This document shows, piece by piece, positions 24,568 through 64,000 of a stretch of DNA of 64,000 nucleotides. A model generated the notes under the pieces. The model was not told the DNA's origin, searched no databases, and saw nothing but the letters and a program-made list of their open reading frames with translations. Source of the stretch: Tausonia pullulans (taxonomy: Eukaryota > Basidiomycota > Tremellomycetes > Cystofilobasidiales > Mrakiaceae); assembly GCA_951802195.1 (NCBI GenBank), contig OX637627.1, forward strand, positions 1,290,749 to 1,354,748, written 5' to 3'. Position numbers and translations under genes: made by a program. How positions within the stretch are numbered: position 1 is the stretch's first letter; the number at the start of each line of letters is the position of its first letter.

Positions 24568-25398
24568 TTTAGTGACAACGCAAGAGTGGGGCGGGCAGGC
24601 CGATTCGTCAGCAGGCAGAGAGGAAGTTCCCGCACTGACCTCGCTTGTCATCTCTGTGTTGGCAATCGACTGGTAAGCTATCTCTTTCAAACGCCGGAGC
24701 TCGGACGGCAACTAGGGCGAACCCACTCGAGCAGATGCAGGACACTTGCTTCCCGATTCCTCGGCACACGTGAATGATTGAGCGATGCGCATGGGACCTC
24801 TCATATTCGAATATATGCTGATTTTAAGACTCATAGTGAGTGACAAATATCAGCAGCCGTTCTTAAGGACTTCGCTGTCGATTATCAGTCTATCCCCTGC
24901 ATCTGGCCATACTGCTGATATCTTCCTCTTGATCACAACGGTGCGCTCATGCTTTCTTCCCCAACCAGTTTCGGCGTTACGACACATATTGTTGAAGTGA
25001 CTAAGCATATAGTACATTCGGTGGTGTAGTCATGTGCAACCAGAAGTCCTCATCTCCTTCCGTGCATCCTTCATCTCTGCAACCGATGTTTACGCGACAT
25101 CCTAGACTTATATCTTCATGTTCAAGCTGGCTGTTTTCGTGTATTCGATCAAACTCTCCAATTTCTTTCAATCACTCAACATTGTATGCAAGCCGCCGTC
25201 TCCGGTGCATCAGACACACGTTCGAACTGCCCTACGAGATCAGGCCACATAAGCCAAACGTCTTAAGCCAAAGATATTCTCTCATCTTATATACCTCTAG
25301 CTTTCTCACAACCCGAACAGCTTGATGAGGTCGAGCACATGCTTATGCCCATCCTGTCAACTCTTCTTCCTTCCATTGCCCTCTGAACCAGACGACGC
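24568..25398. other. Non-coding left part of the unit
   Basis: 3' flank of GFA1 plus about 750 bp in which I see no gene. AT-rich stretches at 24810-25000. The equivalent regions are 33746-34576, 42924-43754, 54077-54907 and 63255-64000. Confidence 0.5.
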
Positions 25399-26253
25399 TC
25401 AGATCTCTTTGGCCATCATACCCTCAAAGAGCTTTGTCTTGCGTGCGGCGCATTCACTGCAGATCCGTGATCGTTAGCGGCGAGGAACGAGGTTGAGATT
25501 GCGAGCGGCATTTAAGTAGTGCGAAGTACGCACGCAGACGTTCCCTTGATGGCTCTCTCCACGAACTGCAATGGGAAAGTAACAGACATAAATAATTAGA
25601 GATTACAGGTGTGACTGGGCTAGAGAATGATTCATAAGTAAACTCACAATCTCGACGGCCGGCTTGACCCTGGCCAATTGGTCAAGAACGCCAGCCTGTT
25701 CAATCAATGAAGAATTCGGCACAGGCATGTTAAGCCTTATTTCGTTCTTTTTTTCTCCTGTTTTCACTTCATTTGGAGCAGATATAAAACGCACCTTGAC
25801 GAACACTACGTCGGGCATCGATTCGGGATACGCGTAAAGCGCAGAGCCGCACTTGCCGCAGAAGGCGCGGTGGATGGTGTAACCCGAGTCGGCGCCAGTG
25901 TCATCGTACATCTAGTGACGATAAACAACCAGTGAGTCCATCTTCTTAAAGTAACAGGCGAGAGATCGTGACTCTATGGCTAGACCTACGTTAGGCTCTC
26001 CTTTGGTAACCTTCAGCTGCTCCTTCTTGAACTGAGCGTTGTACGACTGAAAGGTGTGCAGCTTCTGGCACGTCTGAGAGGGGACCACAAGGACACAAGG
26101 AAGACCATATCAGCATGTGTTTCAGGATCAACAGGCGGAGGGACAAACTCGGCAGTGGCAGATGACTCCAGGAATGTCTTCAGCTGAGACGTCGGCGACC
26201 TCGAAGGCGATGGAGCCGCAATAGCACGAGGCAGTAAGCGTAGAAGTAGACAT
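25399..26253 (-). CDS. GFA-domain protein GFA1 (CENP-V/GFA fold), unit 1
   Basis: The ATG at 26253 begins a six-exon gene for about 147 residues. Zinc ligands of the glutathione-dependent formaldehyde-activating (GFA) fold are all present: CYCG (residues 10-13), ICHCRTCQK (exon 1/2 junction) and FCGKCGSALY. The end is KTKLFEGMMAKEI. GFA proteins bind structural and catalytic zinc; characterised bacterial members accelerate S-hydroxymethylglutathione formation, but most fungal members have no tested activity. Introns are 40-90 nt with standard borders. The gene is head-to-head with the MDR gene across a 717-bp intergenic region. Full-length, no defects seen. Confidence 0.85.
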
Positions 26254-26970
26254 AGCGGTGAAGGGCTGAAGTGAGCGAAGCGAGATGATGGTTGTAAGAG
26301 GTAGCTTGAGGCATTTGCCGAGTTAAGAACGGTCCTGCACCAGGCGCCGTCACCGCAAGCGTCATAGACTGGCAACTGAGAGTCAGTCGCCGGCCTCGGG
26401 CTCAGCCACTCAGCGCGTGTGGCTGGCTGAGTTCGGCGTTTGCTCGAGTTGTGACATGAACGGACTTGCCTGTTCTAGGGATAAAAAATACTGAAGCTCA
26501 CATATTCTTTATGTCAAGTGGAGGAAAGCCGGAACGCGCAAAGCCCGGAAAAATTGATAAGCTTACAAAGTCCATAAAATCGTCCTCGTCAGCAGAGGCT
26601 CGTTTTGATGGGAGGGAACCGGCAGAGACATGTGGGAAATCGCGGGAATATCTGCAAACTGCTTCCGTGCTCTTTTCTCAGCCTCCTTCAGAAGAGTGAA
26701 GAGTAGGACGCTTCCTACGACCTGAATCAGCTGAAACTATGGATGAGCAATCACAAGTGATGAGGAATCAGCCTCCACCTGCAATGAATGTTACGAAGGC
26801 GTTTCCCTAAAAGGACAAAATCAGGGACGGCGAAAGGGAGAGACGACATCGACGACAGTGTTTCATCTGAGGTTTAAAAGCGGCTAAACCCTCACCGTTT
26901 GTGTCTGCACCCCGACCATCACTAGCCGCGTCGCCTCCCACCTCCAACCAGCATCTGTCTCTATCACAAC
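26254..26970. promoter_or_regulatory. Bidirectional promoter region GFA1 / MDR oxidoreductase
   Basis: 717 bp between divergent start codons. A TATA-like TTTAAAAG lies at 26873-26880, about 90 bp before the MDR start. On the GFA1 side, 26343-26571 is the block that also occurs, diverged, before the TPR gene at 50111-50341. Equivalent regions: 35432-36148, 44610-45326 and 61683-62399; at 52646-53221 only the GFA1-proximal part remains. Confidence 0.6.
26343..26571 (-). repeat. GFA1 promoter block shared with the TPR gene (unit 1 copy)
   Basis: About 229 bp ending about 90 bp before the GFA1 start codon. Identical in all five GFA1 promoters (also 35521-35749, 44699-44927, 52904-53132 and 62082-62310), and about 93% identical by eye to 50111-50341. 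Confidence 0.8.
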
Positions 26971-28643
26971 ATGTCCCCTATCCCATCCACTGTCAAGGCC
27001 CTGGCTGCATCCCCAGACCTAGGACTCCCTAATGTTATCGAGATCCCCTTTGGAACTCGTGAGGCCGTAAAGAATCTCAGCCCGCAATCCGTCGTGGTCG
27101 CCAATCGTGCTATCGGACTTAATCCGTGCGTTTATTGTAATTGACCTAACACATCTTCGTCCTGACTTGGCCGGTACGTTATGTTTGCTTTGTGGCTGGG
27201 TTGTGCAGCACCGACTATAAGGTAAGGCTACTGCCTTTCGACAATTGTCTCATTCATTTCAGGCTGATAATCCTTCTTTCCTCTAGCACGCACACGGTGA
27301 CTGGAGCGCCAAGAAGCTCGTCATCATCGGCACTGACAGTGCCGGCACCGCCCTCAAGGTCGGCTCGGGCGTCAGCCACATCAAAGAGGGCGACCGTGTT
27401 GCCGGCATGGTCTACGGCTGCTCCACCGAAGAGCAGGGAGCCTGCTCTGAGGGTACGTGATTGGAGCTGCATGAATCGTTTCACCGCATTGTTGACCCAT
27501 TTGACGCGTTGTCGTTGCTGAAAACTTCTTCAGGCGTCGTTTTCGATGCAGCGAATGCTTTCGTCATGCCTCCGGGCATGAGCGATGTCGAGGGTGCCGC
27601 CTTCACTGTGAGTGTATCTGACTACAGGCTCTGCTTTTTGTCCATTCTGAGCCTCCATCTGACGCCTCACATGTTCAGGCTGTCCACTTGACTGTCGTTC
27701 AGACCTTTTACATGCGCTGGAACCTTCCTAAGCCTTCGGCTCCCGACACTTCCTCGCCCAAGCAGATCATGCTTGTCTGGGGCGGTGAGTTGCTCGGCAG
27801 TCTCTGCTTCATGTTAGGCGCCACAACTGACAATCTTGTATTCGTATTGGTTAGGGTCCACCGCCGTTGGCCATCACGCCGTGCAGCTTGCCACGCTCTC
27901 TGGCTATCGAGTCTTTGTGACTGCCTCGCCGGAGAACCATGCTCGGCTCCGCGAGATCGGCGCCGATCAGTGTTTTAACTACAAGGACCCCAATGTTGTC
28001 GAGGCGATCAAAAAGGCTGCCGGCGAACAGGGAGTCTTTGCCGCTTACGACACCGCTGGTGCGAACGGCTCGCTCGAAAGCTGCATCGGTAAGTGCTTGT
28101 TCCCCTTTTTATACAGCTAGGTCTTAATCTTACGGAAGATCGAGCGCATTTCAGACGCCATTGGCTCAAAGGGCGGCCGTGTGATGTGCACTCTTCCCTT
28201 TGGGGATGAAGCTGCCAACCGTCGCAGTGACGTCAAGGCTGAGTTTGTGAGCGTCTATACTGTCGTTGGCTACCCTGTGAGTGTTTTGTCCTCTGTTTAC
28301 GCAAGAGCTTGTCATTCTCCTCTTGATTTGTCTGCACGCATCCGCTGTAGTCATTTACTTCGTTGCTGACAACGCTCGTCAATTGGATCGCTCGATTTAG
28401 TTCACCTTCGCCAACGTCTTCGACTTCCCCGCTATACTCGATGATAGGGCTCGCTCGCTCGCTTGGGTATCGGAGGAGCTTCCTTTGCTCCTCGAGGGCT
28501 GGGAGGAGGGTATTGGTTCGCGCAGGTACAAACCTCAGAAGCTTCGCATCATGGAGGGTCAGCTTGACCGCGTTCACGAGGGGCTCGACATTCTCGGACG
28601 TGGAGACTACAAGGCCGAGAAGCTCGTCTACAAGCTTGCCTAA
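26971..28643 (+). CDS. MDR-superfamily zinc-type alcohol dehydrogenase/enoyl-reductase-like, unit 1
   Basis: About 370 residues over nine exons. The N-terminal GroES-like domain has VVVANRAIGLNPTDYKHAHG (the 'NP.D.K' motif of ToxD/LovC-like members) and KEGDRVAGMVYG. The Rossmann part has MLVWGGSTAVGHHAVQLATL (nucleotide loop), SGYRVFVTASPENHARLREI and GADQCFNYKD. The C-terminus ends GDYKAEKLVYKLA at 28643. Exon 2 is only 13 nt (27209-27221). The catalytic-zinc Cys-His pattern of true alcohol dehydrogenases is not evident, so it is more likely an NADPH-dependent quinone, enone or enoyl reductase. Substrate unknown. No disruption seen. Confidence 0.85.
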
Positions 28644-29059
28644 GCTTCCGTTTTCTGGGTGAACAGTTACCTCGCGATCTTGTCGCCAGCGAGGCTGATG
28701 ACGAACGATACTGGAGTGGGCGCAGTGTTGGTTTATTTCAATCTACCTAGCTTACCTTTGTTCCAACTTTGAGTTCATACATGTCAATAACCTATGATTT
28801 TCAACATCGAAACCTTTTATCTGACAGATAACGACATTGGCGCCGAAGGTTGCATTGCCGCCTAAGCTCTGTCCGTCGTCTTCCTGCGTTTCATCCTCCG
28901 GCTACCGCCAGACTGAGGTCTGTTCATGAACTACGGAAATGGACGGTACTCACTGCTTGTGACCTCTGCAAGAGAGCTCTTGAAGATGGCTTGTCACAAT
29001 GAGGAAGTCTATGTGGAACAATCGAAGGAAGTTAGGGCACTCTGGAAGTGACTGATTAG
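28644..29059. other. Non-coding region after MDR gene
   Basis: 3' UTR-like AT-rich stretch, then unrecognised sequence up to the repeat element. Confidence 0.4.
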
Positions 29060-29387
29060 AATGGAGTTGCCTTGTTAACTCGGCGCCGAGGTAGCTTTTC
29101 CCTTGCTCACTCAGCATTTCCATCTCTTCGCTCCTCATTTTGTCTCCTCTGTTACACGTTCCTTGCTCTCCGGTCCTTCCTATCCCCCCTTATTCTCGCC
29201 CCCGTCCATAAAACGCGCAGTTCATTGTACATTTTGTTCTGCACTCTGACTATCATTTGGATTCGAAAAACCTGCCCAGAACCTTTACGGGAGCCTGTGT
29301 CACTGCCAGCACTTCAGTCCACTCGTCCACCTACGCCCCCCTTCTCACCCATCCTCCTCAGCCCTTGACCCTTGGCCAATCCTAACA
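29060..29387 (+). repeat. TG..CA element, single diverged copy inside the unit (unit 1)
   Basis: Ends CCTTGGCCAATCCTAACA like the other elements and shares the CGTCCATAAAACGC, TTCTGCACTCTGACTATCAT and CTTGACCCTTGG blocks. Its left end is not intact. Repeated in units 2, 3 and the inverted unit (38238-38565, 47416-47743 and 59266-59593). Confidence 0.65.
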
Positions 29388-30101
29388 AGCACCCCAACCA
29401 ACGCCCCGCTTTATAATGTTCCGCAGAGATTCAATTCGGTTCGTTGCGCCGTTTGCAATCGCATGTTTCGTGATATGGATGTCTCTGATTTGAAGAATGT
29501 CTTGTGGGACAAGTTGTCCTAGAGATATCCACATGGTGGGGCACGAAGCAGTCGCTCTCCCGCGATCATGCTGGCTTTGGCGTCTGTTTCGTCAAACGCC
29601 GAGCCGCCTTCAACAAGCTTCTAAGCATGTTCATAATCCCTGTTTGGACGGATGTCCACCAACCCGCTGAGCCTAGGATCAGTCTCACCTGATTGAGTGT
29701 AACGGCGTTTGAATGGAAGGATGGTCCACCTGGGTAACGGCGTTTGAACTGAGGGTCGGTTCAACTGGACAAGCTCAAAGACCGGGCATCGCAAGCTTCA
29801 CCTGAAGTAGCGGGACGGCCTTTGAACTGAGGGCAATCTCACCTGGACTAGCACAGATTTCGGGTTTTGGACATCAACCTTGTAAGCCGAAACATGCCTT
29901 GTTTACCGCTCACGTTTCAGTCAGCTGGACGCAGCCGGCTCGATCACTCTTGTGTCAGCTTGCCCGGTGACTCAAGGAGGTCGTATGTCTCCTTTCATGT
30001 GTTGACCTCTGCCTGATTTCTCTGCTTTTATACGCGATTAATCACGTCTCTTCGCATGCGACAACCATCTCGCTCACAACCCATTCGCTTCTACATTCAA
30101 C
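29388..30101 (+). promoter_or_regulatory. GFA2 upstream region with degenerate short repeats
   Basis: Between about 29690 and 29860 the motif ACGGC[GC]TTTGAA, often followed by CTGAGGG and then CACCTG or CAACTGGA, recurs three times with irregular spacing. A TATA-like TTTTATA sits at 30026-30032, about 70 bp before the GFA2 start. Otherwise nothing recognised. Confidence 0.4.
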
Positions 30102-30904
30102 ATGACTACCCCCTCGTCCACTTCGACTATTACAGGCTCCTGCTACTGTGGGGCCACGGCTTACAAGGTCGTCGACGTCCCTGCCGGACCAGTTGATGGA
30201 ATTATCTGCCACTGCAAAGTGCGTCACCTCTGAGCTCTCTGTATCACAGCTGAGTAAAACTGAGGCTGTCTCCTTGGCTGCAGACCTGCCAGAAACTGCA
30301 CACCTTCCAGTCCTACAACGCGAGTTTCCCAAAGGACACACTTTCGGTCACAAAGGGCAATCCTTCGGTTGGTTTTTCTCGACTGCCCCTGCAAACCTTC
30401 TATTCCCTCTGACTTAAGGGCGCTTTTCTGTTTCATGTCAGATATACAAGGATGTGACCACCGATTCCGGAAAGCCCATTTACCGCCATCTATGTGGGCA
30501 ATGTGGTTCGGCACTTTTCAGTTACCCTGACCTTGTACCGAACGCTGTCTTCGTTAAGGTATGACAAGTTTCCGCTCCTGTGCGGTAGCCCGTTCCCGAT
30601 GGGTTTACCTGCATCATGAATTAGGTTGGATCGCTTGACGTCATCGATAGGGTCGTGCCGGCCGCCGAAATCGTAAGTCCCTTGTCCTCAAAACAAGCAA
30701 TTGAGGTGCTCATTTGACTGTCGATCGGGTCTATCATTCGACACCAGTACATCGAGCGTGCTATCCAAGGAACCGCCGCGTACGTCTCACTCCACGTTTT
30801 ATTAGTTTCCTTAACCTGGTGGAGAATAACGTTTTTTCTTTCGTAGTACTAGTGCGGACCGCAAGACCAAGCTTTACAAGGGCATGATGGCTGAGGAGAT
30901 ATAA
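30102..30904 (+). CDS. GFA-domain protein GFA2 (CENP-V/GFA fold), unit 1
   Basis: About 151 residues in six exons. Zinc-ligand motifs: SCYCGATAYKV, IICHCKTCQKLHTFQSYNA, LCGQCGSALF. Ends YKGMMAEEI. Clearly a paralogue of GFA1 with the same exon plan, roughly 60% alike by eye, so the two split long before the array formed. Glutathione- or formaldehyde-related activity is possible by family but untested. Intact in every copy. Confidence 0.85.
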
Positions 30905-31169
30905 GAGATGTCTCTGGTCAATCGTTATGTCGAGTCTTAATCTCCTCATAGTCTACCTGCATATCTTATGCATCTCAGGCGGACGACGCTTTCTCAGGTA
31001 ATCGCCTCGCGCTTGAGCTTCCAGACAATGAACCAGAGCCCGGAAACGACGGACTCCTTTCACCAATTCTCTAGATGACAGTCCCACAGGTCTCGCTCGT
31101 GTCAGACCGCTCTCAGATCAGAGGATGAGAGCTTGAAATCGACAGAGGAGGTTGAGGTGGAAAACGTAC
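30905..31169. other. Non-coding region after GFA2
   Basis: No gene recognised. Includes the 3' flank of GFA2 and the decayed tail of the hydrolase remnant. Confidence 0.35.
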
Positions 31170-31316
31170 AAGTGATTCGCCTCTTTCGCCTCGGTGATAT
31201 GCCCTCTATGCCCAGCTTCTTAGACTTCTCGGCAGATTCGTAGCTCTGCGAAGGCGCCACAACATTATCTGCGTCTCCAGTGACAAGGAAGGTTGGTGGA
31301 AAGTTGGCGCCGACGA
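31170..31316 (-). pseudogene. Alpha/beta-hydrolase C-terminal remnant, unit 1
   Basis: Translated on the minus strand it gives NFPPTFLVTGDADNVVAPSQ, then SYESAEKSKKLGIE, the 'PP.l...G..D..V....s' region that carries the catalytic Asp in alpha/beta hydrolases. A one-base frame change then leads to GHITEAKEANHL, where the catalytic His would be expected. Everything upstream is replaced by the TG..CA element, so this is a truncated, frameshifted fragment. Same remnant at 40348-40494, 49526-49672 and 57337-57483 (+). Confidence 0.6.
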
Positions 31317-32080
31317 TGTCAGGATCTCGCGGACTTGCCACTTCGACCCTGCGCCTGGCCAACGCGGCGCCAGTGTAGCCTTTCCCTTGCTTGATCAGCA
31401 TTCCCATTTCTTTATTCCTTCGTTGCCTAATCTGTCCCACACTCTTTGCTTTCTAAACTTTCTCATCCCTCTCTTGTTCTCATCACTCCCTTGTTCTCAC
31501 CACTCGTCCATAAAACGCTCATTTCATCGTAGTTTTGTTCTGCACTCTGACTATCATTTGGACACGACAAACTTGCCCAAGACCCTTAAGCGAGCCCGTG
31601 CCACCTCCATCACTTCAGTTCCCTTTCATCCCCCGCCACCGCTCTCAGTACACTTCGTCACTAACGTCCCTCTCCTCGCCCAGTCTTCTCTGCCCTTGAC
31701 CCTTGGGCCAATCCTAACAAGAAGACTGAGTGAGGAGAGAGACGTTGGCGACGGAGTGGACTGAGCGGCGGCGGGTGGTGGATTTAAACTGAAGTGGTGG
31801 AGGTGACACGGGCTCGCTCGAGGTCTTGGGCAGGTTTGTCAGGTCCAAATGATAGTCAGAGTGCAGAACAAAATATACGATGAACTGAGTGTTTTATGGA
31901 CGGGGTGAGAACAAAAGGGGGGGGGGGGGGATAGGAAGGACCCGAGAGCAAGGAATGTGTAACAGATGAGACAAAGAAGGAATGAAGAAACGGGAATGCT
32001 GGTCAAGCAAGGGAAAAACTACACCGGCGCCAAGTTGGCTAGGCGCAGGGTCGAAGTGGCAAGTCCGCGGGATCCTGACA
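31317..32080. repeat. Foldback of two tail-to-tail TG..CA elements, unit 1
   Basis: Arm A (31317-31719, 403 bp) runs TGTCAGGATC to ATCCTAACA. Arm B (31720-32080, 361 bp) is the inverted counterpart, lacking about the last 30 bp, and ends GATCCTGACA. The arms pair along most of their length (for example GACTTGCCACTTCGACCCTG in A and its complement in B), giving a long imperfect palindrome. Arm B carries a 14-nt G run at 31917-31930. Also at 40495-41258 and 56573-57336. Unit 3 keeps only arm A (49673-50075). Confidence 0.8.
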
Positions 32081-32847
32081 TCCATCTGTCAAACGGCAGG
32101 GAACAAGCCTGCTGCTTGCAGGTCCCCCACAAGGGAGACAAGATGGCGTGGCGTGCCTGGAAGGGGACGTGATGCGCGATAGACTCCGGGAACGACCGCA
32201 GTCTGGGAGGCGAGATCAGCGAGTGGCGTGTGAAGCGTTCGCTCTGCTGTGGTCGAGGGACGAGATTCGGCATCTGAGTGAAGGCGCCAACGTAGAAGAC
32301 GAGGGCGAAAGGGATTTCAGGGAAAGAGGAAAGGAAAGAAGAAAATAAATTCAAATGCTGCAGAAGGAAAATAAACAATATCATGGAGACAGTGCCAGAG
32401 ATCGACCCATCCGTCCGCTGCACCGTCTGGTCTAGCACCTTGACTTTACCACCGCGATCTTAGCCCATTCCTCTTATTCCCACCTTGCACCTGGGAAATT
32501 CAACTATTAGATCACTAGTCCTTACTTAAGTGCTCACTTCTCAACCTTCGGGTTTGCTTTGAACCGTGCGTATCTTGCCGTACCCTAACCAGTTATATTG
32601 TCCTCCAACCATGATCCTTCACCCTGCCGAACTTATGCAAACAGCATCACTCAATTGAACAACTACTCTCCATCCTTTCTTCCGTTGGACCTTTCATGAT
32701 CCGCTCATCTTCTTTCCTGCAAAGCGAGCCTAACCTCTTCTCCCGCCCCTAACCTCTACTTGACACTAATGAGCTCTTCGAGGACGTAACACGGACAGAA
32801 CAAGAATACGCTTTCGCCCATACCAATATATTCATGATCAAAGGTTT
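32081..32847. other. Unrecognised region between foldback and methyltransferase
   Basis: An open frame of 139 codons on the minus strand (about 32019-32438) overlaps the foldback, and its composition (Phe/Leu/Pro/Arg mix) does not look like a conserved protein. The last 200 bp are the 3' flank of the methyltransferase. Confidence 0.4.
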
Positions 32848-33701
32848 TTACAGCGCCCAAGCGAGCAGGCGGCCGCGCTCGCCAAACTCGCCCTCCCAGG
32901 CAAGCTTCCAGCCACGCGGCTCAAGCAAATCCTTGTAGATTTGCGGTGAAAGGATCCACGGCGGACCCGTGTGCTGGTTCTCTTCTTTCCACATCGGCCA
33001 ACACGCTGTGAGCAAAAGTGAGTCCGGCTGAGAGGACAAGAGCTCGGTGTAGCGGTCGGCCCAACGATCACGCATGTCCGGCGGCAGGGCGCAGAGGAAT
33101 GTGAGGTCCCAAGCGAGCTGGATTTGAGCTATCAGTATATGCTGAGTCGTGAGGCGTGTCAACCAGAAGAAGACGGGGACCACTCACAGAAAAGCCTTCT
33201 GAGGGCGGCTCGAATGTAAAGAAATCGGCACAATGAATCTCGACCGGCCGCGCATCAGGCTCGATCACGTCCCGTGACGCAAGCCACCTGTGAAGACGAA
33301 GCGATGTAAGCACAAACACATACCCACGCATGGAATACTTTAGGTACTCTTTGGCTGCTGCGACGGCCGTCTCTGAAAGGTCGAGCCCCCATGTCGATCG
33401 TTTATGGTCGCCGACCTCGGCGAGGGCAGCCGCGTCGTACCCCTACGACCGAATCAATCAGAATGCAGACAGCAAAACCGATGGCGTGTCGACTTACTCT
33501 TCCACATCCAGCAACAAGCCCCATGCCAAAATTGGGTATTTTGACTGCTGCCGGCGGCGCCTTGAGGAATGCAACGAGATACGGGTCGGCTTGGCCGCGA
33601 TCCCAATGAGTGACGGAGGCTTTCCACAATAGATCCCAGCCATGCTTGCCGTTATCAGCAATGGCTCCAATGATGGTGATGTTGTCTCCGGGTTCTGCCA
33701 T
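32848..33701 (-). CDS. TPMT/HOL-type methyltransferase, array copy unit 1
   Basis: Same four-exon 230-residue gene as at 13289-14142, in opposite orientation. Protein unchanged; one silent codon difference seen. It sits at the right edge of the unit with only 44 bp of its own 5' flank before the next unit begins, so its upstream promoter is now the GFA1 3' side of the next unit (in unit 1, unit 2 DNA). Expression could therefore differ from the stand-alone gene. Confidence 0.85.
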
Positions 33702-34576
33702 TGTGATGGTTTGAGGAAGGAGTGCAACGAGACGTAATCAGTAAGTTTAGTGACAACGCAAGAGTGGGGCGGGCAGGCCGATTCGTCAGCAGGCAGAGAG
33801 GAAGTTCCCGCACTGACCTCGCTTGTCATCTCTGTGTTGGCAATCGACTGGTAAGCTATCTCTTTCAAACGCCGGAGCTCGGACGGCAACTAGGGCGAAC
33901 CCACTCGAGCAGATGCAGGACACTTGCTTCCCGATTCCTCGGCACACGTGAATGATTGAGCGATGCGCATGGGACCTCTCATATTCGAATATATGCTGAT
34001 TTTAAGACTCATAGTGAGTGACAAATATCAGCAGCCGTTCTTAAGGACTTCGCTGTCGATTATCAGTCTATCCCCTGCATCTGGCCATACTGCTGATATC
34101 TTCCTCTTGATCACAACGGTGCGCTCATGCTTTCTTCCCCAACCAGTTTCGGCGTTACGACACATATTGTTGAAGTGACTAAGCATATAGTACATTCGGT
34201 GGTGTAGTCATGTGCAACCAGAAGTCCTCATCTCCTTCCGTGCATCCTTCATCTCTGCAACCGATGTTTACGCGACATCCTAGACTTATATCTTCATGTT
34301 CAAGCTGGCTGTTTTCGTGTATTCGATCAAACTCTCCAATTTCTTTCAATCACTCAACATTGTATGCAAGCCGCCGTCTCCGGTGCATCAGACACACGTT
34401 CGAACTGCCCTACGAGATCAGGCCACATAAGCCAAACGTCTTAAGCCAAAGATATTCTCTCATCTTATATACCTCTAGCTTTCTCACAACCCGAACAGCT
34501 TGATGAGGTCGAGCACATGCTTATGCCCATCCTGTCAACTCTTCTTCCTTCCATTGCCCTCTGAACCAGACGACGC

Positions 34577-35431
34577 TCAGATCTCTTTGGCCATCATACC
34601 CTCAAAGAGCTTTGTCTTGCGTGCGGCGCATTCACTGCAGATCCGTGATCGTTAGCGGCGAGGAACGAGGTTGAGATTGCGAGCGGCATTTAAGTAGTGC
34701 GAAGTACGCACGCAGACGTTCCCTTGATGGCTCTCTCCACGAACTGCAATGGGAAAGTAACAGACATAAATAATTAGAGATTACAGGTGTGACTGGGCTA
34801 GAGAATGATTCATAAGTAAACTCACAATCTCGACGGCCGGCTTGACCCTGGCCAATTGGTCAAGAACGCCAGCCTGTTCAATCAATGAAGAATTCGGCAC
34901 AGGCATGTTAAGCCTTATTTCGTTCTTTTTTTCTCCTGTTTTCACTTCATTTGGAGCAGATATAAAACGCACCTTGACGAACACTACGTCGGGCATCGAT
35001 TCGGGATACGCGTAAAGCGCAGAGCCGCACTTGCCGCAGAAGGCGCGGTGGATGGTGTAACCCGAGTCGGCGCCAGTGTCATCGTACATCTAGTGACGAT
35101 AAACAACCAGTGAGTCCATCTTCTTAAAGTAACAGGCGAGAGATCGTGACTCTATGGCTAGACCTACGTTAGGCTCTCCTTTGGTAACCTTCAGCTGCTC
35201 CTTCTTGAACTGAGCGTTGTACGACTGAAAGGTGTGCAGCTTCTGGCACGTCTGAGAGGGGACCACAAGGACACAAGGAAGACCATATCAGCATGTGTTT
35301 CAGGATCAACAGGCGGAGGGACAAACTCGGCAGTGGCAGATGACTCCAGGAATGTCTTCAGCTGAGACGTCGGCGACCTCGAAGGCGATGGAGCCGCAAT
35401 AGCACGAGGCAGTAAGCGTAGAAGTAGACAT
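34577..35431 (-). CDS. GFA-domain protein GFA1, unit 2
   Basis: Identical to the unit 1 gene at 25399-26253. Confidence 0.85.
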
Positions 35432-50075: not shown

Positions 50076-50110
50076 GAGGGTTTCTACTGACATGGGCTAA
50101 AATTTGGAGA

Positions 50111-52645: not shown

Positions 52646-54907
52646 GTCCCTGATTTTGTCCATTTTAGGAAAACGCCTTCGTAACATTCATTGCAGGTGG
52701 AGGCTGATTCCTCATCACTTGTGATTGCTCATCCATAGTTTCAGCTGATTCAGGTCGTAGGAAGCGTCCTACTCTTCACTCTTCTGAAGGAGGCTGAGAA
52801 AAGAGCACGGAAGCAGTTTGCAGATATTCCCGCGATTTCCCACATGTCTCTGCCGGTTCCCTCCCATCAAAACGAGCCTCTGCTGACGAGGACGATTTTA
52901 TGGACTTTGTAAGCTTATCAATTTTTCCGGGCTTTGCGCGTTCCGGCTTTCCTCCACTTGACATAAAGAATATGTGAGCTTCAGTATTTTTTATCCCTAG
53001 AACAGGCAAGTCCGTTCATGTCACAACTCGAGCAAACGCCGAACTCAGCCAGCCACACGCGCTGAGTGGCTGAGCCCGAGGCCGGCGACTGACTCTCAGT
53101 TGCCAGTCTATGACGCTTGCGGTGACGGCGCCTGGTGCAGGACCGTTCTTAACTCGGCAAATGCCTCAAGCTACCTCTTACAACCATCATCTCGCTTCGC
53201 TCACTTCAGCCCTTCACCGCTATGTCTACTTCTACGCTTACTGCCTCGTGCTATTGCGGCTCCATCGCCTTCGAGGTCGCCGACGTCTCAGCTGAAGACA
53301 TTCCTGGAGTCATCTGCCACTGCCGAGTTTGTCCCTCCGCCTGTTGATCCTGAAACACATGCTGATATGGTCTTCCTTGTGTCCTTGTGGTCCCCTCTCA
53401 GACGTGCCAGAAGCTGCACACCTTTCAGTCGTACAACGCTCAGTTCAAGAAGGAGCAGCTGAAGGTTACCAAAGGAGAGCCTAACGTAGGTCTAGCCATA
53501 GAGTCACGATCTCTCGCCTGTTACTTTAAGAAGATGGACTCACTGGTTGTTTATCGTCACTAGATGTACGATGACACTGGCGCCGACTCGGGTTACACCA
53601 TCCACCGCGCCTTCTGCGGCAAGTGCGGCTCTGCGCTTTACGCGTATCCCGAATCGATGCCCGACGTAGTGTTCGTCAAGGTGCGTTTTATATCTGCTCC
53701 AAATGAAGTGAAAACAGGAGAAAAAAAGAACGAAATAAGGCTTAACATGCCTGTGCCGAATTCTTCATTGATTGAACAGGCTGGCGTTCTTGACCAATTG
53801 GCCAGGGTCAAGCCGGCCGTCGAGATTGTGAGTTTACTTATGAATCATTCTCTAGCCCAGTCACACCTGTAATCTCTAATTATTTATGTCTGTTACTTTC
53901 CCATTGCAGTTCGTGGAGAGAGCCATCAAGGGAACGTCTGCGTGCGTACTTCGCACTACTTAAATGCCGCTCGCAATCTCAACCTCGTTCCTCGCCGCTA
54001 ACGATCACGGATCTGCAGTGAATGCGCCGCACGCAAGACAAAGCTCTTTGAGGGTATGATGGCCAAAGAGATCTGAGCGTCGTCTGGTTCAGAGGGCAAT
54101 GGAAGGAAGAAGAGTTGACAGGATGGGCATAAGCATGTGCTCGACCTCATCAAGCTGTTCGGGTTGTGAGAAAGCTAGAGGTATATAAGATGAGAGAATA
54201 TCTTTGGCTTAAGACGTTTGGCTTATGTGGCCTGATCTCGTAGGGCAGTTCGAACGTGTGTCTGATGCACCGGAGACGGCGGCTTGCATACAATGTTGAG
54301 TGATTGAAAGAAATTGGAGAGTTTGATCGAATACACGAAAACAGCCAGCTTGAACATGAAGATATAAGTCTAGGATGTCGCGTAAACATCGGTTGCAGAG
54401 ATGAAGGATGCACGGAAGGAGATGAGGACTTCTGGTTGCACATGACTACACCACCGAATGTACTATATGCTTAGTCACTTCAACAATATGTGTCGTAACG
54501 CCGAAACTGGTTGGGGAAGAAAGCATGAGCGCACCGTTGTGATCAAGAGGAAGATATCAGCAGTATGGCCAGATGCAGGGGATAGACTGATAATCGACAG
54601 CGAAGTCCTTAAGAACGGCTGCTGATATTTGTCACTCACTATGAGTCTTAAAATCAGCATATATTCGAATATGAGAGGTCCCATGCGCATCGCTCAATCA
54701 TTCACGTGTGCCGAGGAATCGGGAAGCAAGTGTCCTGCATCTGCTCGAGTGGGTTCGCCCTAGTTGCCGTCCGAGCTCCGGCGTTTGAAAGAGATAGCTT
54801 ACCAGTCGATTGCCAACACAGAGATGACAAGCGAGGTCAGTGCGGGAACTTCCTCTCTGCCTGCTGACGAATCGGCCTGCCCGCCCCACTCTTGCGTTGT
54901 CACTAAA
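52646..54907 (-). repeat. Array unit, inverted, truncated (2.26 kb)
   Basis: Reverse complement of unit positions 24568 to about 26830. The first 25 bp (GTCCCTGATTTTGTCC, then an extra base and two changes relative to 61827 onward) are diverged; from about 52671 it matches the other copies. Holds the GFA1 promoter, GFA1 and the unit's non-coding left part. Confidence 0.92.
53222..54076 (+). CDS. GFA-domain protein GFA1, inverted copy a
   Basis: Identical protein to the unit 1 gene. Downstream of the TPR gene in the same orientation, so two copies of the shared promoter block lie as direct repeats 2.8 kb apart, flanking the TPR gene. Confidence 0.85.
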
Positions 54908-54951
54908 CTTACTGATTACGTCTCGTTGCACTCCTTCCTCAAACCATCACA

Positions 54952-55805
54952 ATGGCAGAACCCGGAGACAACATCACCATCATTGGAGCCATTGCTGATA
55001 ACGGCAAGCATGGCTGGGATCTATTGTGGAAAGCCTCCGTCACTCATTGGGATCGCGGCCAAGCCGACCCGTATCTCGTTGCATTCCTCAAGGCGCCGCC
55101 GGCAGCAGTCAAAATACCCAATTTTGGCATGGGGCTTGTTGCTGGATGTGGAAGAGTAAGTCGACACGCCATCGGTTTTGCTGTCTGCATTCTGATTGAT
55201 TCGGTCGTAGGGGTACGACGCGGCTGCCCTCGCCGAGGTCGGCGACCATAAACGATCGACATGGGGGCTCGACCTTTCAGAGACGGCCGTCGCAGCAGCC
55301 AAAGAGTACCTAAAGTATTCCATGCGTGGGTATGTGTTTGTGCTTACATCGCTTCGTCTTCACAGGTGGCTTGCGTCACGGGACGTGATCGAGCCTGATG
55401 CGCGGCCGGTCGAGATTCATTGTGCCGATTTCTTTACATTCGAGCCGCCCTCAGAAGGCTTTTCTGTGAGTGGTCCCCGTCTTCTTCTGGTTGACACGCC
55501 TCACGACTCAGCATATACTGATAGCTCAAATCCAGCTCGCTTGGGACCTCACATTCCTCTGCGCCCTGCCGCCGGACATGCGTGATCGTTGGGCCGACCG
55601 CTACACCGAGCTCTTGTCCTCTCAGCCGGACTCACTTTTGCTCACAGCGTGTTGGCCGATGTGGAAAGAAGAGAACCAGCACACGGGTCCGCCGTGGATC
55701 CTTTCACCGCAAATCTACAAGGATTTGCTTGAGCCGCGTGGCTGGAAGCTTGCCTGGGAGGGCGAGTTTGGCGAGCGCGGCCGCCTGCTCGCTTGGGCGC
55801 TGTAA
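54952..55805 (+). CDS. TPMT/HOL-type methyltransferase, inverted copy
   Basis: Identical to the array copies at 32848-33701 and 42026-42879. Carries CCG where the stand-alone gene has CCA, which leaves proline unchanged. Confidence 0.85.
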
Positions 55806-56572
55806 AAACCTTTGATCATGAATATATTGGTATGGGCGAAAGCGTATTCTTGTTCTGTCCGTGTTACGTCCTCGAAGAGCTCATTAGTGTCAAGTAGAGG
55901 TTAGGGGCGGGAGAAGAGGTTAGGCTCGCTTTGCAGGAAAGAAGATGAGCGGATCATGAAAGGTCCAACGGAAGAAAGGATGGAGAGTAGTTGTTCAATT
56001 GAGTGATGCTGTTTGCATAAGTTCGGCAGGGTGAAGGATCATGGTTGGAGGACAATATAACTGGTTAGGGTACGGCAAGATACGCACGGTTCAAAGCAAA
56101 CCCGAAGGTTGAGAAGTGAGCACTTAAGTAAGGACTAGTGATCTAATAGTTGAATTTCCCAGGTGCAAGGTGGGAATAAGAGGAATGGGCTAAGATCGCG
56201 GTGGTAAAGTCAAGGTGCTAGACCAGACGGTGCAGCGGACGGATGGGTCGATCTCTGGCACTGTCTCCATGATATTGTTTATTTTCCTTCTGCAGCATTT
56301 GAATTTATTTTCTTCTTTCCTTTCCTCTTTCCCTGAAATCCCTTTCGCCCTCGTCTTCTACGTTGGCGCCTTCACTCAGATGCCGAATCTCGTCCCTCGA
56401 CCACAGCAGAGCGAACGCTTCACACGCCACTCGCTGATCTCGCCTCCCAGACTGCGGTCGTTCCCGGAGTCTATCGCGCATCACGTCCCCTTCCAGGCAC
56501 GCCACGCCATCTTGTCTCCCTTGTGGGGGACCTGCAAGCAGCAGGCTTGTTCCCTGCCGTTTGACAGATGGA

Positions 56573-57336
56573 TGTCAGGATCCCGCGGACTTGCCACTTC
56601 GACCCTGCGCCTAGCCAACTTGGCGCCGGTGTAGTTTTTCCCTTGCTTGACCAGCATTCCCGTTTCTTCATTCCTTCTTTGTCTCATCTGTTACACATTC
56701 CTTGCTCTCGGGTCCTTCCTATCCCCCCCCCCCCCCTTTTGTTCTCACCCCGTCCATAAAACACTCAGTTCATCGTATATTTTGTTCTGCACTCTGACTA
56801 TCATTTGGACCTGACAAACCTGCCCAAGACCTCGAGCGAGCCCGTGTCACCTCCACCACTTCAGTTTAAATCCACCACCCGCCGCCGCTCAGTCCACTCC
56901 GTCGCCAACGTCTCTCTCCTCACTCAGTCTTCTTGTTAGGATTGGCCCAAGGGTCAAGGGCAGAGAAGACTGGGCGAGGAGAGGGACGTTAGTGACGAAG
57001 TGTACTGAGAGCGGTGGCGGGGGATGAAAGGGAACTGAAGTGATGGAGGTGGCACGGGCTCGCTTAAGGGTCTTGGGCAAGTTTGTCGTGTCCAAATGAT
57101 AGTCAGAGTGCAGAACAAAACTACGATGAAATGAGCGTTTTATGGACGAGTGGTGAGAACAAGGGAGTGATGAGAACAAGAGAGGGATGAGAAAGTTTAG
57201 AAAGCAAAGAGTGTGGGACAGATTAGGCAACGAAGGAATAAAGAAATGGGAATGCTGATCAAGCAAGGGAAAGGCTACACTGGCGCCGCGTTGGCCAGGC
57301 GCAGGGTCGAAGTGGCAAGTCCGCGAGATCCTGACA
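56573..57336. repeat. Foldback of two TG..CA elements, inverted copy
   Basis: Arm B 56573-56933, arm A 56934-57336; same composition as the direct-unit copies. Confidence 0.8.
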
Positions 57337-57483
57337 TCGTCGGCGCCAACTTTCCACCAACCTTCCTTGTCACTGGAGACGCAGATAATGTTGTGGCGCC
57401 TTCGCAGAGCTACGAATCTGCCGAGAAGTCTAAGAAGCTGGGCATAGAGGGCATATCACCGAGGCGAAAGAGGCGAATCACTT
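57337..57483 (+). pseudogene. Alpha/beta-hydrolase remnant, inverted copy
   Basis: Same fragment as in the direct units. Begins immediately after the TG..CA element end. Confidence 0.6.
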
Positions 57484-57748
57484 GTACGTTTTCCACCTCA
57501 ACCTCCTCTGTCGATTTCAAGCTCTCATCCTCTGATCTGAGAGCGGTCTGACACGAGCGAGACCTGTGGGACTGTCATCTAGAGAATTGGTGAAAGGAGT
57601 CCGTCGTTTCCGGGCTCTGGTTCATTGTCTGGAAGCTCAAGCGCGAGGCGATTACCTGAGAAAGCGTCGTCCGCCTGAGATGCATAAGATATGCAGGTAG
57701 ACTATGAGGAGATTAAGACTCGACATAACGATTGACCAGAGACATCTC

Positions 57749-58551
57749 TTATATCTCCTCAGCCATCATGCCCTTGTAAAGCTTGGTCTTGCGGTCCGCA
57801 CTAGTACTACGAAAGAAAAAACGTTATTCTCCACCAGGTTAAGGAAACTAATAAAACGTGGAGTGAGACGTACGCGGCGGTTCCTTGGATAGCACGCTCG
57901 ATGTACTGGTGTCGAATGATAGACCCGATCGACAGTCAAATGAGCACCTCAATTGCTTGTTTTGAGGACAAGGGACTTACGATTTCGGCGGCCGGCACGA
58001 CCCTATCGATGACGTCAAGCGATCCAACCTAATTCATGATGCAGGTAAACCCATCGGGAACGGGCTACCGCACAGGAGCGGAAACTTGTCATACCTTAAC
58101 GAAGACAGCGTTCGGTACAAGGTCAGGGTAACTGAAAAGTGCCGAACCACATTGCCCACATAGATGGCGGTAAATGGGCTTTCCGGAATCGGTGGTCACA
58201 TCCTTGTATATCTGACATGAAACAGAAAAGCGCCCTTAAGTCAGAGGGAATAGAAGGTTTGCAGGGGCAGTCGAGAAAAACCAACCGAAGGATTGCCCTT
58301 TGTGACCGAAAGTGTGTCCTTTGGGAAACTCGCGTTGTAGGACTGGAAGGTGTGCAGTTTCTGGCAGGTCTGCAGCCAAGGAGACAGCCTCAGTTTTACT
58401 CAGCTGTGATACAGAGAGCTCAGAGGTGACGCACTTTGCAGTGGCAGATAATTCCATCAACTGGTCCGGCAGGGACGTCGACGACCTTGTAAGCCGTGGC
58501 CCCACAGTAGCAGGAGCCTGTAATAGTCGAAGTGGACGAGGGGGTAGTCAT
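57749..58551 (-). CDS. GFA-domain protein GFA2, inverted copy
   Basis: Identical to the unit 1 gene. Confidence 0.85.
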
Positions 58552-60009
58552 GTTGAATGTAGAAGCGAATGGGTTGTGAGCGAGATGGTTGTCGCATGCG
58601 AAGAGACGTGATTAATCGCGTATAAAAGCAGAGAAATCAGGCAGAGGTCAACACATGAAAGGAGACATACGACCTCCTTGAGTCACCGGGCAAGCTGACA
58701 CAAGAGTGATCGAGCCGGCTGCGTCCAGCTGACTGAAACGTGAGCGGTAAACAAGGCATGTTTCGGCTTACAAGGTTGATGTCCAAAACCCGAAATCTGT
58801 GCTAGTCCAGGTGAGATTGCCCTCAGTTCAAAGGCCGTCCCGCTACTTCAGGTGAAGCTTGCGATGCCCGGTCTTTGAGCTTGTCCAGTTGAACCGACCC
58901 TCAGTTCAAACGCCGTTACCCAGGTGGACCATCCTTCCATTCAAACGCCGTTACACTCAATCAGGTGAGACTGATCCTAGGCTCAGCGGGTTGGTGGACA
59001 TCCGTCCAAACAGGGATTATGAACATGCTTAGAAGCTTGTTGAAGGCGGCTCGGCGTTTGACGAAACAGACGCCAAAGCCAGCATGATCGCGGGAGAGCG
59101 ACTGCTTCGTGCCCCACCATGTGGATATCTCTAGGACAACTTGTCCCACAAGACATTCTTCAAATCAGAGACATCCATATCACGAAACATGCGATTGCAA
59201 ACGGCGCAACGAACCGAATTGAATCTCTGCGGAACATTATAAAGCGGGGCGTTGGTTGGGGTGCTTGTTAGGATTGGCCAAGGGTCAAGGGCTGAGGAGG
59301 ATGGGTGAGAAGGGGGGCGTAGGTGGACGAGTGGACTGAAGTGCTGGCAGTGACACAGGCTCCCGTAAAGGTTCTGGGCAGGTTTTTCGAATCCAAATGA
59401 TAGTCAGAGTGCAGAACAAAATGTACAATGAACTGCGCGTTTTATGGACGGGGGCGAGAATAAGGGGGGATAGGAAGGACCGGAGAGCAAGGAACGTGTA
59501 ACAGAGGAGACAAAATGAGGAGCGAAGAGATGGAAATGCTGAGTGAGCAAGGGAAAAGCTACCTCGGCGCCGAGTTAACAAGGCAACTCCATTCTAATCA
59601 GTCACTTCCAGAGTGCCCTAACTTCCTTCGATTGTTCCACATAGACTTCCTCATTGTGACAAGCCATCTTCAAGAGCTCTCTTGCAGAGGTCACAAGCAG
59701 TGAGTACCGTCCATTTCCGTAGTTCATGAACAGACCTCAGTCTGGCGGTAGCCGGAGGATGAAACGCAGGAAGACGACGGACAGAGCTTAGGCGGCAATG
59801 CAACCTTCGGCGCCAATGTCGTTATCTGTCAGATAAAAGGTTTCGATGTTGAAAATCATAGGTTATTGACATGTATGAACTCAAAGTTGGAACAAAGGTA
59901 AGCTAGGTAGATTGAAATAAACCAACACTGCGCCCACTCCAGTATCGTTCGTCATCAGCCTCGCTGGCGACAAGATCGCGAGGTAACTGTTCACCCAGAA
60001 AACGGAAGC

Positions 60010-61682
60010 TTAGGCAAGCTTGTAGACGAGCTTCTCGGCCTTGTAGTCTCCACGTCCGAGAATGTCGAGCCCCTCGTGAACGCGGTCAAGCTGACCCTCC
60101 ATGATGCGAAGCTTCTGAGGTTTGTACCTGCGCGAACCAATACCCTCCTCCCAGCCCTCGAGGAGCAAAGGAAGCTCCTCCGATACCCAAGCGAGCGAGC
60201 GAGCCCTATCATCGAGTATAGCGGGGAAGTCGAAGACGTTGGCGAAGGTGAACTAAATCGAGCGATCCAATTGACGAGCGTTGTCAGCAACGAAGTAAAT
60301 GACTACAGCGGATGCGTGCAGACAAATCAAGAGGAGAATGACAAGCTCTTGCGTAAACAGAGGACAAAACACTCACAGGGTAGCCAACGACAGTATAGAC
60401 GCTCACAAACTCAGCCTTGACGTCACTGCGACGGTTGGCAGCTTCATCCCCAAAGGGAAGAGTGCACATCACACGGCCGCCCTTTGAGCCAATGGCGTCT
60501 GAAATGCGCTCGATCTTCCGTAAGATTAAGACCTAGCTGTATAAAAAGGGGAACAAGCACTTACCGATGCAGCTTTCGAGCGAGCCGTTCGCACCAGCGG
60601 TGTCGTAAGCGGCAAAGACTCCCTGTTCGCCGGCAGCCTTTTTGATCGCCTCGACAACATTGGGGTCCTTGTAGTTAAAACACTGATCGGCGCCGATCTC
60701 GCGGAGCCGAGCATGGTTCTCCGGCGAGGCAGTCACAAAGACTCGATAGCCAGAGAGCGTGGCAAGCTGCACGGCGTGATGGCCAACGGCGGTGGACCCT
60801 AACCAATACGAATACAAGATTGTCAGTTGTGGCGCCTAACATGAAGCAGAGACTGCCGAGCAACTCACCGCCCCAGACAAGCATGATCTGCTTGGGCGAG
60901 GAAGTGTCGGGAGCCGAAGGCTTAGGAAGGTTCCAGCGCATGTAAAAGGTCTGAACGACAGTCAAGTGGACAGCCTGAACATGTGAGGCGTCAGATGGAG
61001 GCTCAGAATGGACAAAAAGCAGAGCCTGTAGTCAGATACACTCACAGTGAAGGCGGCACCCTCGACATCGCTCATGCCCGGAGGCATGACGAAAGCATTC
61101 GCTGCATCGAAAACGACGCCTGAAGAAGTTTTCAGCAACGACAACGCGTCAAATGGGTCAACAATGCGGTGAAACGATTCATGCAGCTCCAATCACGTAC
61201 CCTCAGAGCAGGCTCCCTGCTCTTCGGTGGAGCAGCCGTAGACCATGCCGGCAACACGGTCGCCCTCTTTGATGTGGCTGACGCCCGAGCCGACCTTGAG
61301 GGCGGTGCCGGCACTGTCAGTGCCGATGATGACGAGCTTCTTGGCGCTCCAGTCACCGTGTGCGTGCTAGAGGAAAGAAGGATTATCAGCCTGAAATGAA
61401 TGAGACAATTGTCGAAAGGCAGTAGCCTTACCTTATAGTCGGTGCTGCACAACCCAGCCACAAAGCAAACATAACGTACCGGCCAAGTCAGGACGAAGAT
61501 GTGTTAGGTCAATTACAATAAACGCACGGATTAAGTCCGATAGCACGATTGGCGACCACGACGGATTGCGGGCTGAGATTCTTTACGGCCTCACGAGTTC
61601 CAAAGGGGATCTCGATAACATTAGGGAGTCCTAGGTCTGGGGATGCAGCCAGGGCCTTGACAGTGGATGGGATAGGGGACAT
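60010..61682 (-). CDS. MDR oxidoreductase, inverted copy
   Basis: Identical to the unit 1 gene. Confidence 0.85.
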
Positions 61683-62399
61683 GTTGTGATAGAGACAGAT
61701 GCTGGTTGGAGGTGGGAGGCGACGCGGCTAGTGATGGTCGGGGTGCAGACACAAACGGTGAGGGTTTAGCCGCTTTTAAACCTCAGATGAAACACTGTCG
61801 TCGATGTCGTCTCTCCCTTTCGCCGTCCCTGATTTTGTCCTTTTAGGGAAACGCCTTCGTAACATTCATTGCAGGTGGAGGCTGATTCCTCATCACTTGT
61901 GATTGCTCATCCATAGTTTCAGCTGATTCAGGTCGTAGGAAGCGTCCTACTCTTCACTCTTCTGAAGGAGGCTGAGAAAAGAGCACGGAAGCAGTTTGCA
62001 GATATTCCCGCGATTTCCCACATGTCTCTGCCGGTTCCCTCCCATCAAAACGAGCCTCTGCTGACGAGGACGATTTTATGGACTTTGTAAGCTTATCAAT
62101 TTTTCCGGGCTTTGCGCGTTCCGGCTTTCCTCCACTTGACATAAAGAATATGTGAGCTTCAGTATTTTTTATCCCTAGAACAGGCAAGTCCGTTCATGTC
62201 ACAACTCGAGCAAACGCCGAACTCAGCCAGCCACACGCGCTGAGTGGCTGAGCCCGAGGCCGGCGACTGACTCTCAGTTGCCAGTCTATGACGCTTGCGG
62301 TGACGGCGCCTGGTGCAGGACCGTTCTTAACTCGGCAAATGCCTCAAGCTACCTCTTACAACCATCATCTCGCTTCGCTCACTTCAGCCCTTCACCGCT

Positions 62400-63254
62400 A
62401 TGTCTACTTCTACGCTTACTGCCTCGTGCTATTGCGGCTCCATCGCCTTCGAGGTCGCCGACGTCTCAGCTGAAGACATTCCTGGAGTCATCTGCCACTG
62501 CCGAGTTTGTCCCTCCGCCTGTTGATCCTGAAACACATGCTGATATGGTCTTCCTTGTGTCCTTGTGGTCCCCTCTCAGACGTGCCAGAAGCTGCACACC
62601 TTTCAGTCGTACAACGCTCAGTTCAAGAAGGAGCAGCTGAAGGTTACCAAAGGAGAGCCTAACGTAGGTCTAGCCATAGAGTCACGATCTCTCGCCTGTT
62701 ACTTTAAGAAGATGGACTCACTGGTTGTTTATCGTCACTAGATGTACGATGACACTGGCGCCGACTCGGGTTACACCATCCACCGCGCCTTCTGCGGCAA
62801 GTGCGGCTCTGCGCTTTACGCGTATCCCGAATCGATGCCCGACGTAGTGTTCGTCAAGGTGCGTTTTATATCTGCTCCAAATGAAGTGAAAACAGGAGAA
62901 AAAAAGAACGAAATAAGGCTTAACATGCCTGTGCCGAATTCTTCATTGATTGAACAGGCTGGCGTTCTTGACCAATTGGCCAGGGTCAAGCCGGCCGTCG
63001 AGATTGTGAGTTTACTTATGAATCATTCTCTAGCCCAGTCACACCTGTAATCTCTAATTATTTATGTCTGTTACTTTCCCATTGCAGTTCGTGGAGAGAG
63101 CCATCAAGGGAACGTCTGCGTGCGTACTTCGCACTACTTAAATGCCGCTCGCAATCTCAACCTCGTTCCTCGCCGCTAACGATCACGGATCTGCAGTGAA
63201 TGCGCCGCACGCAAGACAAAGCTCTTTGAGGGTATGATGGCCAAAGAGATCTGA
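62400..63254 (+). CDS. GFA-domain protein GFA1, inverted copy b
   Basis: Identical to the unit 1 gene; fifth copy in the window. Confidence 0.85.
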
Positions 63255-64000
63255 GCGTCGTCTGGTTCAGAGGGCAATGGAAGGAAGAAGAGTTGACAGG
63301 ATGGGCATAAGCATGTGCTCGACCTCATCAAGCTGTTCGGGTTGTGAGAAAGCTAGAGGTATATAAGATGAGAGAATATCTTTGGCTTAAGACGTTTGGC
63401 TTATGTGGCCTGATCTCGTAGGGCAGTTCGAACGTGTGTCTGATGCACCGGAGACGGCGGCTTGCATACAATGTTGAGTGATTGAAAGAAATTGGAGAGT
63501 TTGATCGAATACACGAAAACAGCCAGCTTGAACATGAAGATATAAGTCTAGGATGTCGCGTAAACATCGGTTGCAGAGATGAAGGATGCACGGAAGGAGA
63601 TGAGGACTTCTGGTTGCACATGACTACACCACCGAATGTACTATATGCTTAGTCACTTCAACAATATGTGTCGTAACGCCGAAACTGGTTGGGGAAGAAA
63701 GCATGAGCGCACCGTTGTGATCAAGAGGAAGATATCAGCAGTATGGCCAGATGCAGGGGATAGACTGATAATCGACAGCGAAGTCCTTAAGAACGGCTGC
63801 TGATATTTGTCACTCACTATGAGTCTTAAAATCAGCATATATTCGAATATGAGAGGTCCCATGCGCATCGCTCAATCATTCACGTGTGCCGAGGAATCGG
63901 GAAGCAAGTGTCCTGCATCTGCTCGAGTGGGTTCGCCCTAGTTGCCGTCCGAGCTCCGGCGTTTGAAAGAGATAGCTTACCAGTCGATTGCCAACACAGA

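Follow-up and report, generated by a model that had tools for sequence, protein, structure and literature searches.

The right end of one contig of the Tausonia pullulans genome (NCBI GenBank assembly GCA_951802195.1, contig OX637627.1, hereafter C8) raises the question of how a tandem array of a multigene unit came to be followed by inverted copies of the same unit, and whether both halves of this structure exist in the chromosome. The stretch analyzed here, referred to as the window, comprises 64,000 nucleotides (positions 1,290,749 to 1,354,748 of the forward strand) of an assembly of 23.86 Mb in 21 contigs, and its base 64000 is the final base of C8 (1,354,748 bp). Positions given without a contig name are those of the window. 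An earlier description made without database searches (the sequence-only reading) had noted an inverted array of a 9,178-bp unit around a single gene. On balance, the locus appears to record a recent amplification, in which an end-joined tandem duplication was expanded, joined through a long terminal repeat (LTR) to a segment carrying a TPR protein gene, and then folded back.

Organization of the Array and Identity of Its Copies

The repeat layout and its coordinates were obtained from a BLAST comparison of the window with itself and from an alignment of the five copies. Both gave a unit of exactly 9,178 bp, in agreement with the period reported in the sequence-only reading, and the layout and coordinates described there (two full and one truncated direct copies, a 2.57-kb island, and two inverted copies) were confirmed as well. 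Direct copies 1 and 2 occupy positions 24568–33745 and 33746–42923 of the forward strand, whereas copy 3 (42924–50075, same strand) is cut at unit position 7152, which is the 3′ end of the repeat designated LTR A below. The island (50076–52645, forward strand; 2,570 bp) lies between the direct and the inverted copies. On the reverse strand, a short copy (52646–54908) runs from unit position 2261 to 1, and a long copy (54909–64000) runs from unit position 9178 to 87, where it stops at the contig end. The further claim that the array continues past the window is not demonstrable, because the window and the contig end at the same base.

Copies 1 and 2 showed no differences over 9,178 aligned bases, and the private differences across all five copies numbered three in total. 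Copy 3 has a private change at unit position 7095, 57 bp from its junction with the island, and the short inverted copy has a substitution at unit position 2238 and an inserted base at unit position 2245, both within 24 bp of the inverted junction. Such a small number of differences among the five copies indicates that the array is either recent or homogenized. As a block, unit positions 1–6433 had no second copy in the genome (40 of 367 candidates scored), where only repeat-element and promoter pieces were matched. The locus thus contains at least two near-identical units placed head to tail, as a subtelomeric tandem array does. Judging from the sequence, the direct array is probably real DNA; for the inverted half, reality is the somewhat better supported assumption.

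The Unit-to-Unit Junction

Neighboring units meet (unit position 9178 to 1) at 33745/33746, at 42923/42924 and, in inverted orientation, at 54908/54909. The junction is blunt, with 0 bp of microhomology, and is identical at all three occurrences; this agreement points to one founder junction that was subsequently multiplied. The left flank joins the array at 24567/24568 and contains, on the reverse strand, an inverted copy of unit positions 8084–9178 (13245–14339; 98.5% identity, with 14 of 1,096 positions differing from the unit). Beyond unit position 9178, this copy and the paralogue on contig C19 share the same continuation, from which the array departs. Two substitutions located within 10 bp of the unit-to-unit junction are specific to the array and occur in neither paralogue.

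LTRs and the Junction of the Array with the Island

LTR A (31317–31719, forward strand) is 403 bp long, has TG...CA ends, and recurs at 40495–40897, 49673–50075 and, inverted, 56935–57337. It stands head-to-head with the truncated LTR B (31720–32080, reverse strand), with which it forms an inverted repeat of 79–80% identity. Copies of the 403-bp repeat were found at more than 30 places in the genome, and the LTR end pattern was fitted by 19 distinct copies in 28 loci. A 5-bp target duplication was perfect in six of these 19 copies, carried one mismatch in another, and was lacking in 12; a comparison of the flanks of LTR A in the unit itself likewise revealed no matching 5-bp target duplication. 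The sequence adjoining a copy on C15 encodes a reverse transcriptase (RVT_1), an integrase, and a chromodomain, and by this domain content the repeat is classified as an LTR of a Ty3/gypsy chromovirus.

At the junction of the array with the island (50075|50076), the exact 3′ end of the LTR abuts the promoter of the TPR gene, the next bases being GAGGG. The equivalent point on C3 has GAGGG but lacks the LTR, and the 5′ flank of the LTR at the array reads GACGA, unlike the GAGGG on its 3′ side. Given these unlike flanks and the presence of GAGGG without the LTR on C3, the LTR at this junction looks recombinant. Within full units, the end of LTR A abuts the inverted truncated LTR, which places the break at the boundary of the head-to-head LTR pair. 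Matches to microRNAs at this pair were rejected, as they fell far under the gathering scores and were explained by its hairpin shape.

Related elements were observed elsewhere in the genome. At C15:185449-197918, three LTR copies lie exactly 4,534 bp apart, with surroundings that are 99.97–100% identical (3.4 kb each), and the arrangement is a head-to-tail retrotransposon array. Large inverted repeats with Ty3/gypsy-type LTRs lie inside contigs C9 (710307-737566) and C20 (269685-313299), where the sampled mirrored pieces of 1.9–3.4 kb were 98.4–99.96% identical; by analogy with the palindromic centromeres mentioned for Cryptococcus, these repeats are possibly centromeres.

The Inverted Junction

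At the inverted junction (52645|52646), no bases match on either side, and the visible homology is 0 bp. The inverted arm of 11,355 bp differs from copies 1 and 2 at two positions, both within 24 bp of this junction; by post hoc arithmetic, the chance of both differences falling so close to it under random placement is about 5e-6. In a genome-wide search for a donor of the variant bases, in which the 24-bp pattern was allowed up to 3 mismatches, the junction itself was the sole place matched.

The structure is not the spacer-free palindrome produced by sister fusion, since the 2,570-bp island separates the arms. It has the layout of a fold-back, in which the arms, known from the assembly, are separated by an island that is single at the locus, while the rest of the loop consists of repeated array sequence. 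With copy 3 as the template and priming at 45184, the loop would extend over 45185–52645 (7,461 bp); with copy 2 as the template and priming at 36006, it would measure 16,639 bp. Copy 1 cannot have served as one uninterrupted template, since the inverted arm continues into unit position 9178.

Chromosome-End Setting

Telomeres in this genome are runs of a 13-mer, (CCCAACCTACCGA)n, as seen at C19:1-217. Among the 20 large contigs, 15 carry this repeat at the start and 18 at the end, so that 33 of 40 ends are capped; the count omits C21 (18.8 kb), whose first 300 bp contain two tRNAs. The repeat is missing from the starts of C3, C5, C11, C17, and C20, of which C17 and C20 read N in the 300 bases inspected, and from the right ends of C8 and C9. 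The right end of C8, which bears no telomere repeat on a contig that is itself unfinished, is therefore one of the few ends that the assembly left unclosed. The 13-mer is unlike the motifs used for other genera: TAAC(4,5) for Cryptococcus and Kwoniella (PMC11185503) and CCCCTAA for Cutaneotrichosporon (PMC10568926). A full-text literature search with the 13-mer returned a single paper, which was unrelated.

Unit positions 8643–9178 directly adjoin the telomere of C19 (C19:218-749, 96%), and the paralogue of the TPR segment lies on C3, 15 kb in from the uncapped start of that contig. Because of these two placements, the array locus is probably subtelomeric and belongs to the right end of C8. 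It shares segments with other chromosome ends, as subtelomeres do; the telomeres of the right end of C8 and of the start of C3 both lie outside the assembly.

Proposed Origin of the Array and Alternative Explanations

The junctions described above suggest a scheme of four steps. Homology-free, error-prone repair may first have connected the end of a 9,178-bp gene block to its start and so produced a tandem duplication; the resulting junction is directly visible in the sequence. The identity of its three occurrences suggests that unequal exchange or break-induced copying then multiplied this founder junction. At a Ty3/gypsy LTR, recombination would next have linked the array to the subtelomeric segment with the TPR gene, at the junction read at 50075|50076. 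Finally, the broken end at 52645 would have folded back, been primed at unit position 2261 within the array, and been copied in reverse. For this last step, the junction is present in the assembly, and from it we infer both its reality in the chromosome and the event that formed it. Base changes lie close to each of the three kinds of junction (unit-to-unit, LTR-TPR, and inverted). Yeast cells that have lost a telomere form palindromes, and subunits of polymerase zeta are important for the survival of such cells (PMC4981268); the changes beside the junctions would fit this, although the enzyme at work here need not be the same.

Several observations weigh against this scheme. The order of events is polarized only at the unit-to-unit junction, and even there the cluster of substitutions is only suggestive, because the copy at 13245 in any case differs from the unit at 14 of 1,096 positions. 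In copy 3, the LTR is one base off LTR A, other genomic copies being mostly 87–94% identical. The inverted junction shows no visible inverted homology, in contrast to most human fold-back junctions. Moreover, the array is known from the assembly, and its inverted arm takes up the final 11.36 kb of a contig that was not closed, a possible site of a chimeric read; changes confined to the 24 bp beside the inverted junction also fit an incompletely polished chimera.

These last points lead to the strongest rival explanation, an assembly artefact limited to the inverted half: the direct array would be real, and the inverted half would be the product of a chimeric or fold-back read or of an assembly-graph path through a repeat that was not resolved. 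We consider this less likely than the stepwise scheme, but by no means negligible. The window ends with the contig 86 bp before a unit boundary, a natural branch point, all departures of the inverted arm from copies 1 and 2 fall inside the 24 bp next to the junction, and artificial palindromes in long reads have been documented after whole-genome amplification (PMC6218980). However, the structure is no plain hairpin, since the two arms are kept apart by a 2.57-kb island bearing an open gene. The inverted arm also runs through a unit-to-unit junction and thereby spans parts of two units. A more extensive artefact, in which most of the array results from over-expansion of a repeat by the software and the true locus holds one or two units, is improbable. 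The identity of copies 1 and 2 does leave their number unsupported by internal differences; nevertheless, the unit-to-unit junction requires at least two adjoining units, and the telomere is missing here whereas 33 of 40 ends are capped, as a long identical array predicts.

Still less probable is the formation of the whole structure in one process, by origin-dependent inverted-repeat amplification (ODIRA) or by double rolling-circle copying. The co-occurrence of direct and inverted copies, as in CNV-B of Candida parapsilosis (PMC9600344), would agree with such a process, as would the head-to-head LTR pair in the unit (31317–32080), with the array-island junction at the boundary between the two LTRs. 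With regard to the inverted-middle-copy layout of ODIRA (DUP-TRP/INV-DUP), however, the available sequence up to the point where the contig stops contains a single inversion, and no matching bases were found beside the inverted junction, short inverted repeats at the junctions not having been scanned for systematically. It is hardly more credible that the right end of C8 lost its telomere and is now capped by the array, with repeated fold-back and break-induced copying of the 9.2-kb block maintaining the end; an end of this kind would resemble the survivors of telomere-deficient laboratory yeast, and the base changes would then be the footprint of error-prone synthesis.

A stepwise amplification followed by fold-back is thus the reading we prefer, and its meaning depends on the inverted half. 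If the latter is real, one locus keeps the homology-free, LTR, and fold-back junctions of a natural amplification together with changed bases nearby, and the steps of subtelomeric gene amplification could be read from a single sequence. The dosage of the dehydrogenase, GFA-type, and methyltransferase genes described below would also be raised, a trait open to testing. Should the direct array alone prove real, the locus would represent a common type of subtelomeric copy-number variant and a warning about the interpretation of contig ends.

Genes of the Repeat Unit and the Island

No open reading frame of at least 150 amino acids (bacterial code and starts) was found within the unit, because its genes are split by introns. 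They were located by six-frame domain scans and, for the dehydrogenase, also by tblastn with a 370-amino-acid homologue; seen in this way exon by exon, they bear out the earlier description of the unit as multigene. In copy 1, a GFA-type gene (PF04828) is marked by a domain match at 25762–25893 on the reverse strand (E 5.6e-9), and a zinc-binding dehydrogenase gene (PF00107/PF08240; E 2e-11) occupies 26971–28637 on the forward strand. A second GFA-type gene on the forward strand (30454–30570) gave a weak match (E 0.02) under the curated cut-off, and a TPMT-like methyltransferase gene lies on the reverse strand within the approximate limits 32651–33701 (PF05724 at about 32905–33135, E 7.3e-9). 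Residues 1–369 of the 370-amino-acid homologue were matched in pieces over unit positions 2404–4070, and the dehydrogenase gene therefore appears complete; its relatives include Kwoniella proteins of 53–56% identity and one unnamed protein of 58%. Judged by position, the assembled part of the array contains four copies of the dehydrogenase gene (copies 1, 2, and 3 and the long inverted copy), five of the first GFA-type gene, and three of the methyltransferase gene, which has an additional copy of 98.5% identity at 13245–14339. The possibility that the unit is ribosomal DNA was rejected, as the rRNA matches that reached the gathering score fall outside the array.

The island carries a gene for a 619-amino-acid TPR protein (50326–52185, forward strand) with an open frame and no visible intron. 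Nucleotides 1–2176 of the island are 91% identical to C3:15245-17417, where the reading frame of the paralogue is likewise open; identity is 68–86% in the first 300 bp and 94–95% over most of the coding part. Among the best 120 of 4,008 protein matches, the highest (60–71%) were unnamed or metagenome proteins, and the nearest named relatives came from Kwoniella (54–55%) and Cryptotrichosporon (56%). Island positions 36–266 (50111–50341) are 93% similar to unit positions 1776–2004, so that the promoters of the TPR gene and of the first GFA-type gene have sequence in common. In this stretch, the resemblance between these two genes exceeds that between the TPR paralogues, which may be taken as a sign of exchange or conversion between both promoters. 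As a cause of the inverted junction, this homology was rejected because the junction sits elsewhere. The sequence-only reading had called both the island and its gene unique. For the gene, this holds at the locus but not in the genome, given the paralogue on C3; for the island, it holds within the window only, and partly not even there, in view of the promoter piece resembling the unit.

Other Features of the Left Flank

A tRNA scan of the window found none. In the left flank, an isolated 5.8S-like sequence at 3701–3820 (reverse strand) reached the gathering score, and no other copy of it was found in the assembly (39 of 795 candidates scored). A partial large-subunit rRNA sequence lies at 14404–14793 (reverse strand); related sequences occur on C13, 26 kb in from its start, and on C18, 20 kb before its end. 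The left flank also gave matches to an RTA1-like membrane protein and one glycosyltransferase-like match (EryCIII-like C-terminal domain), at about 20079–20168 and 22573–23433 on the reverse strand and at about 17313–17504 on the forward strand.

Comparison with Known Systems

Each component of the locus is already known, and it is their combination that is unusual. Among the titles of open-licence papers listed by the literature searches, none dealt with a tandem array folding back around an LTR-joined gene with all junctions readable or with this particular locus. The earlier statement that such arrays are unusual in fungal chromosomes is weakened by the probable subtelomeric setting, in which fungal gene amplification is well known. 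Similarly, the suggested resemblance to selected inverted-duplication amplicons is borne out by the layout, which is of the inverted-duplication type, while the data gave no sign of selection.

Inverted duplications with repeat-associated junctions, as seen here, have been described among breakage-fusion-bridge and inverted-repeat copy-number variants in Zymoseptoria tritici (PMC3681731) and Candida albicans (PMC7371428). Those cases are larger and are backed by karyotype, depth, or long reads, whereas the present one involves a 9-kb unit and is known from the assembly. In human terminal fold-back duplications (PMC3907307), an inverted arm follows a non-palindromic spacer of some kilobases, as it does here in the assembly. 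The 21 human junctions had spacers of 766–70,466 bp, a range that includes the loop of 7,461 or 16,639 bp proposed above; most of them had short inverted homology, whereas no inverted homology is visible at the present junction and the arms consist of a tandem array.

The closest parallels come from gene amplifications in yeasts. Subtelomeric amplification of ALS4 was described in Candida auris in a work that cites the telomere-adjacent ARR3 in Cryptococcus neoformans (PMC10035925), and these amplifications, together with those of RTA3 and ARR3 in C. parapsilosis (PMC9600344), are head-to-tail, as in the present case, and several lie near chromosome ends. Of the 14 RTA3 tandem arrays, 12 had no end repeats or end repeats shorter than 5 bp (PMC9600344), and such breakpoints with little or no homology resemble the unit-to-unit junction found here. 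One further RTA3 array, CNV-B, mixes direct and inverted copies in a DUP-TRP/INV-DUP-like manner, as here, but its unit is 269 bp long and its inverted copies are interspersed, whereas the present locus has a single inversion around a gene-bearing island (PMC9600344). The RTA3 units that include the reading frame measure 2.3–4.5 kb (PMC9600344), compared with the 9.2-kb multigene unit and the inverted arm of T. pullulans. Set beside these systems, a subtelomeric tandem copy-number variant begun by end-joining accounts well for the direct array.

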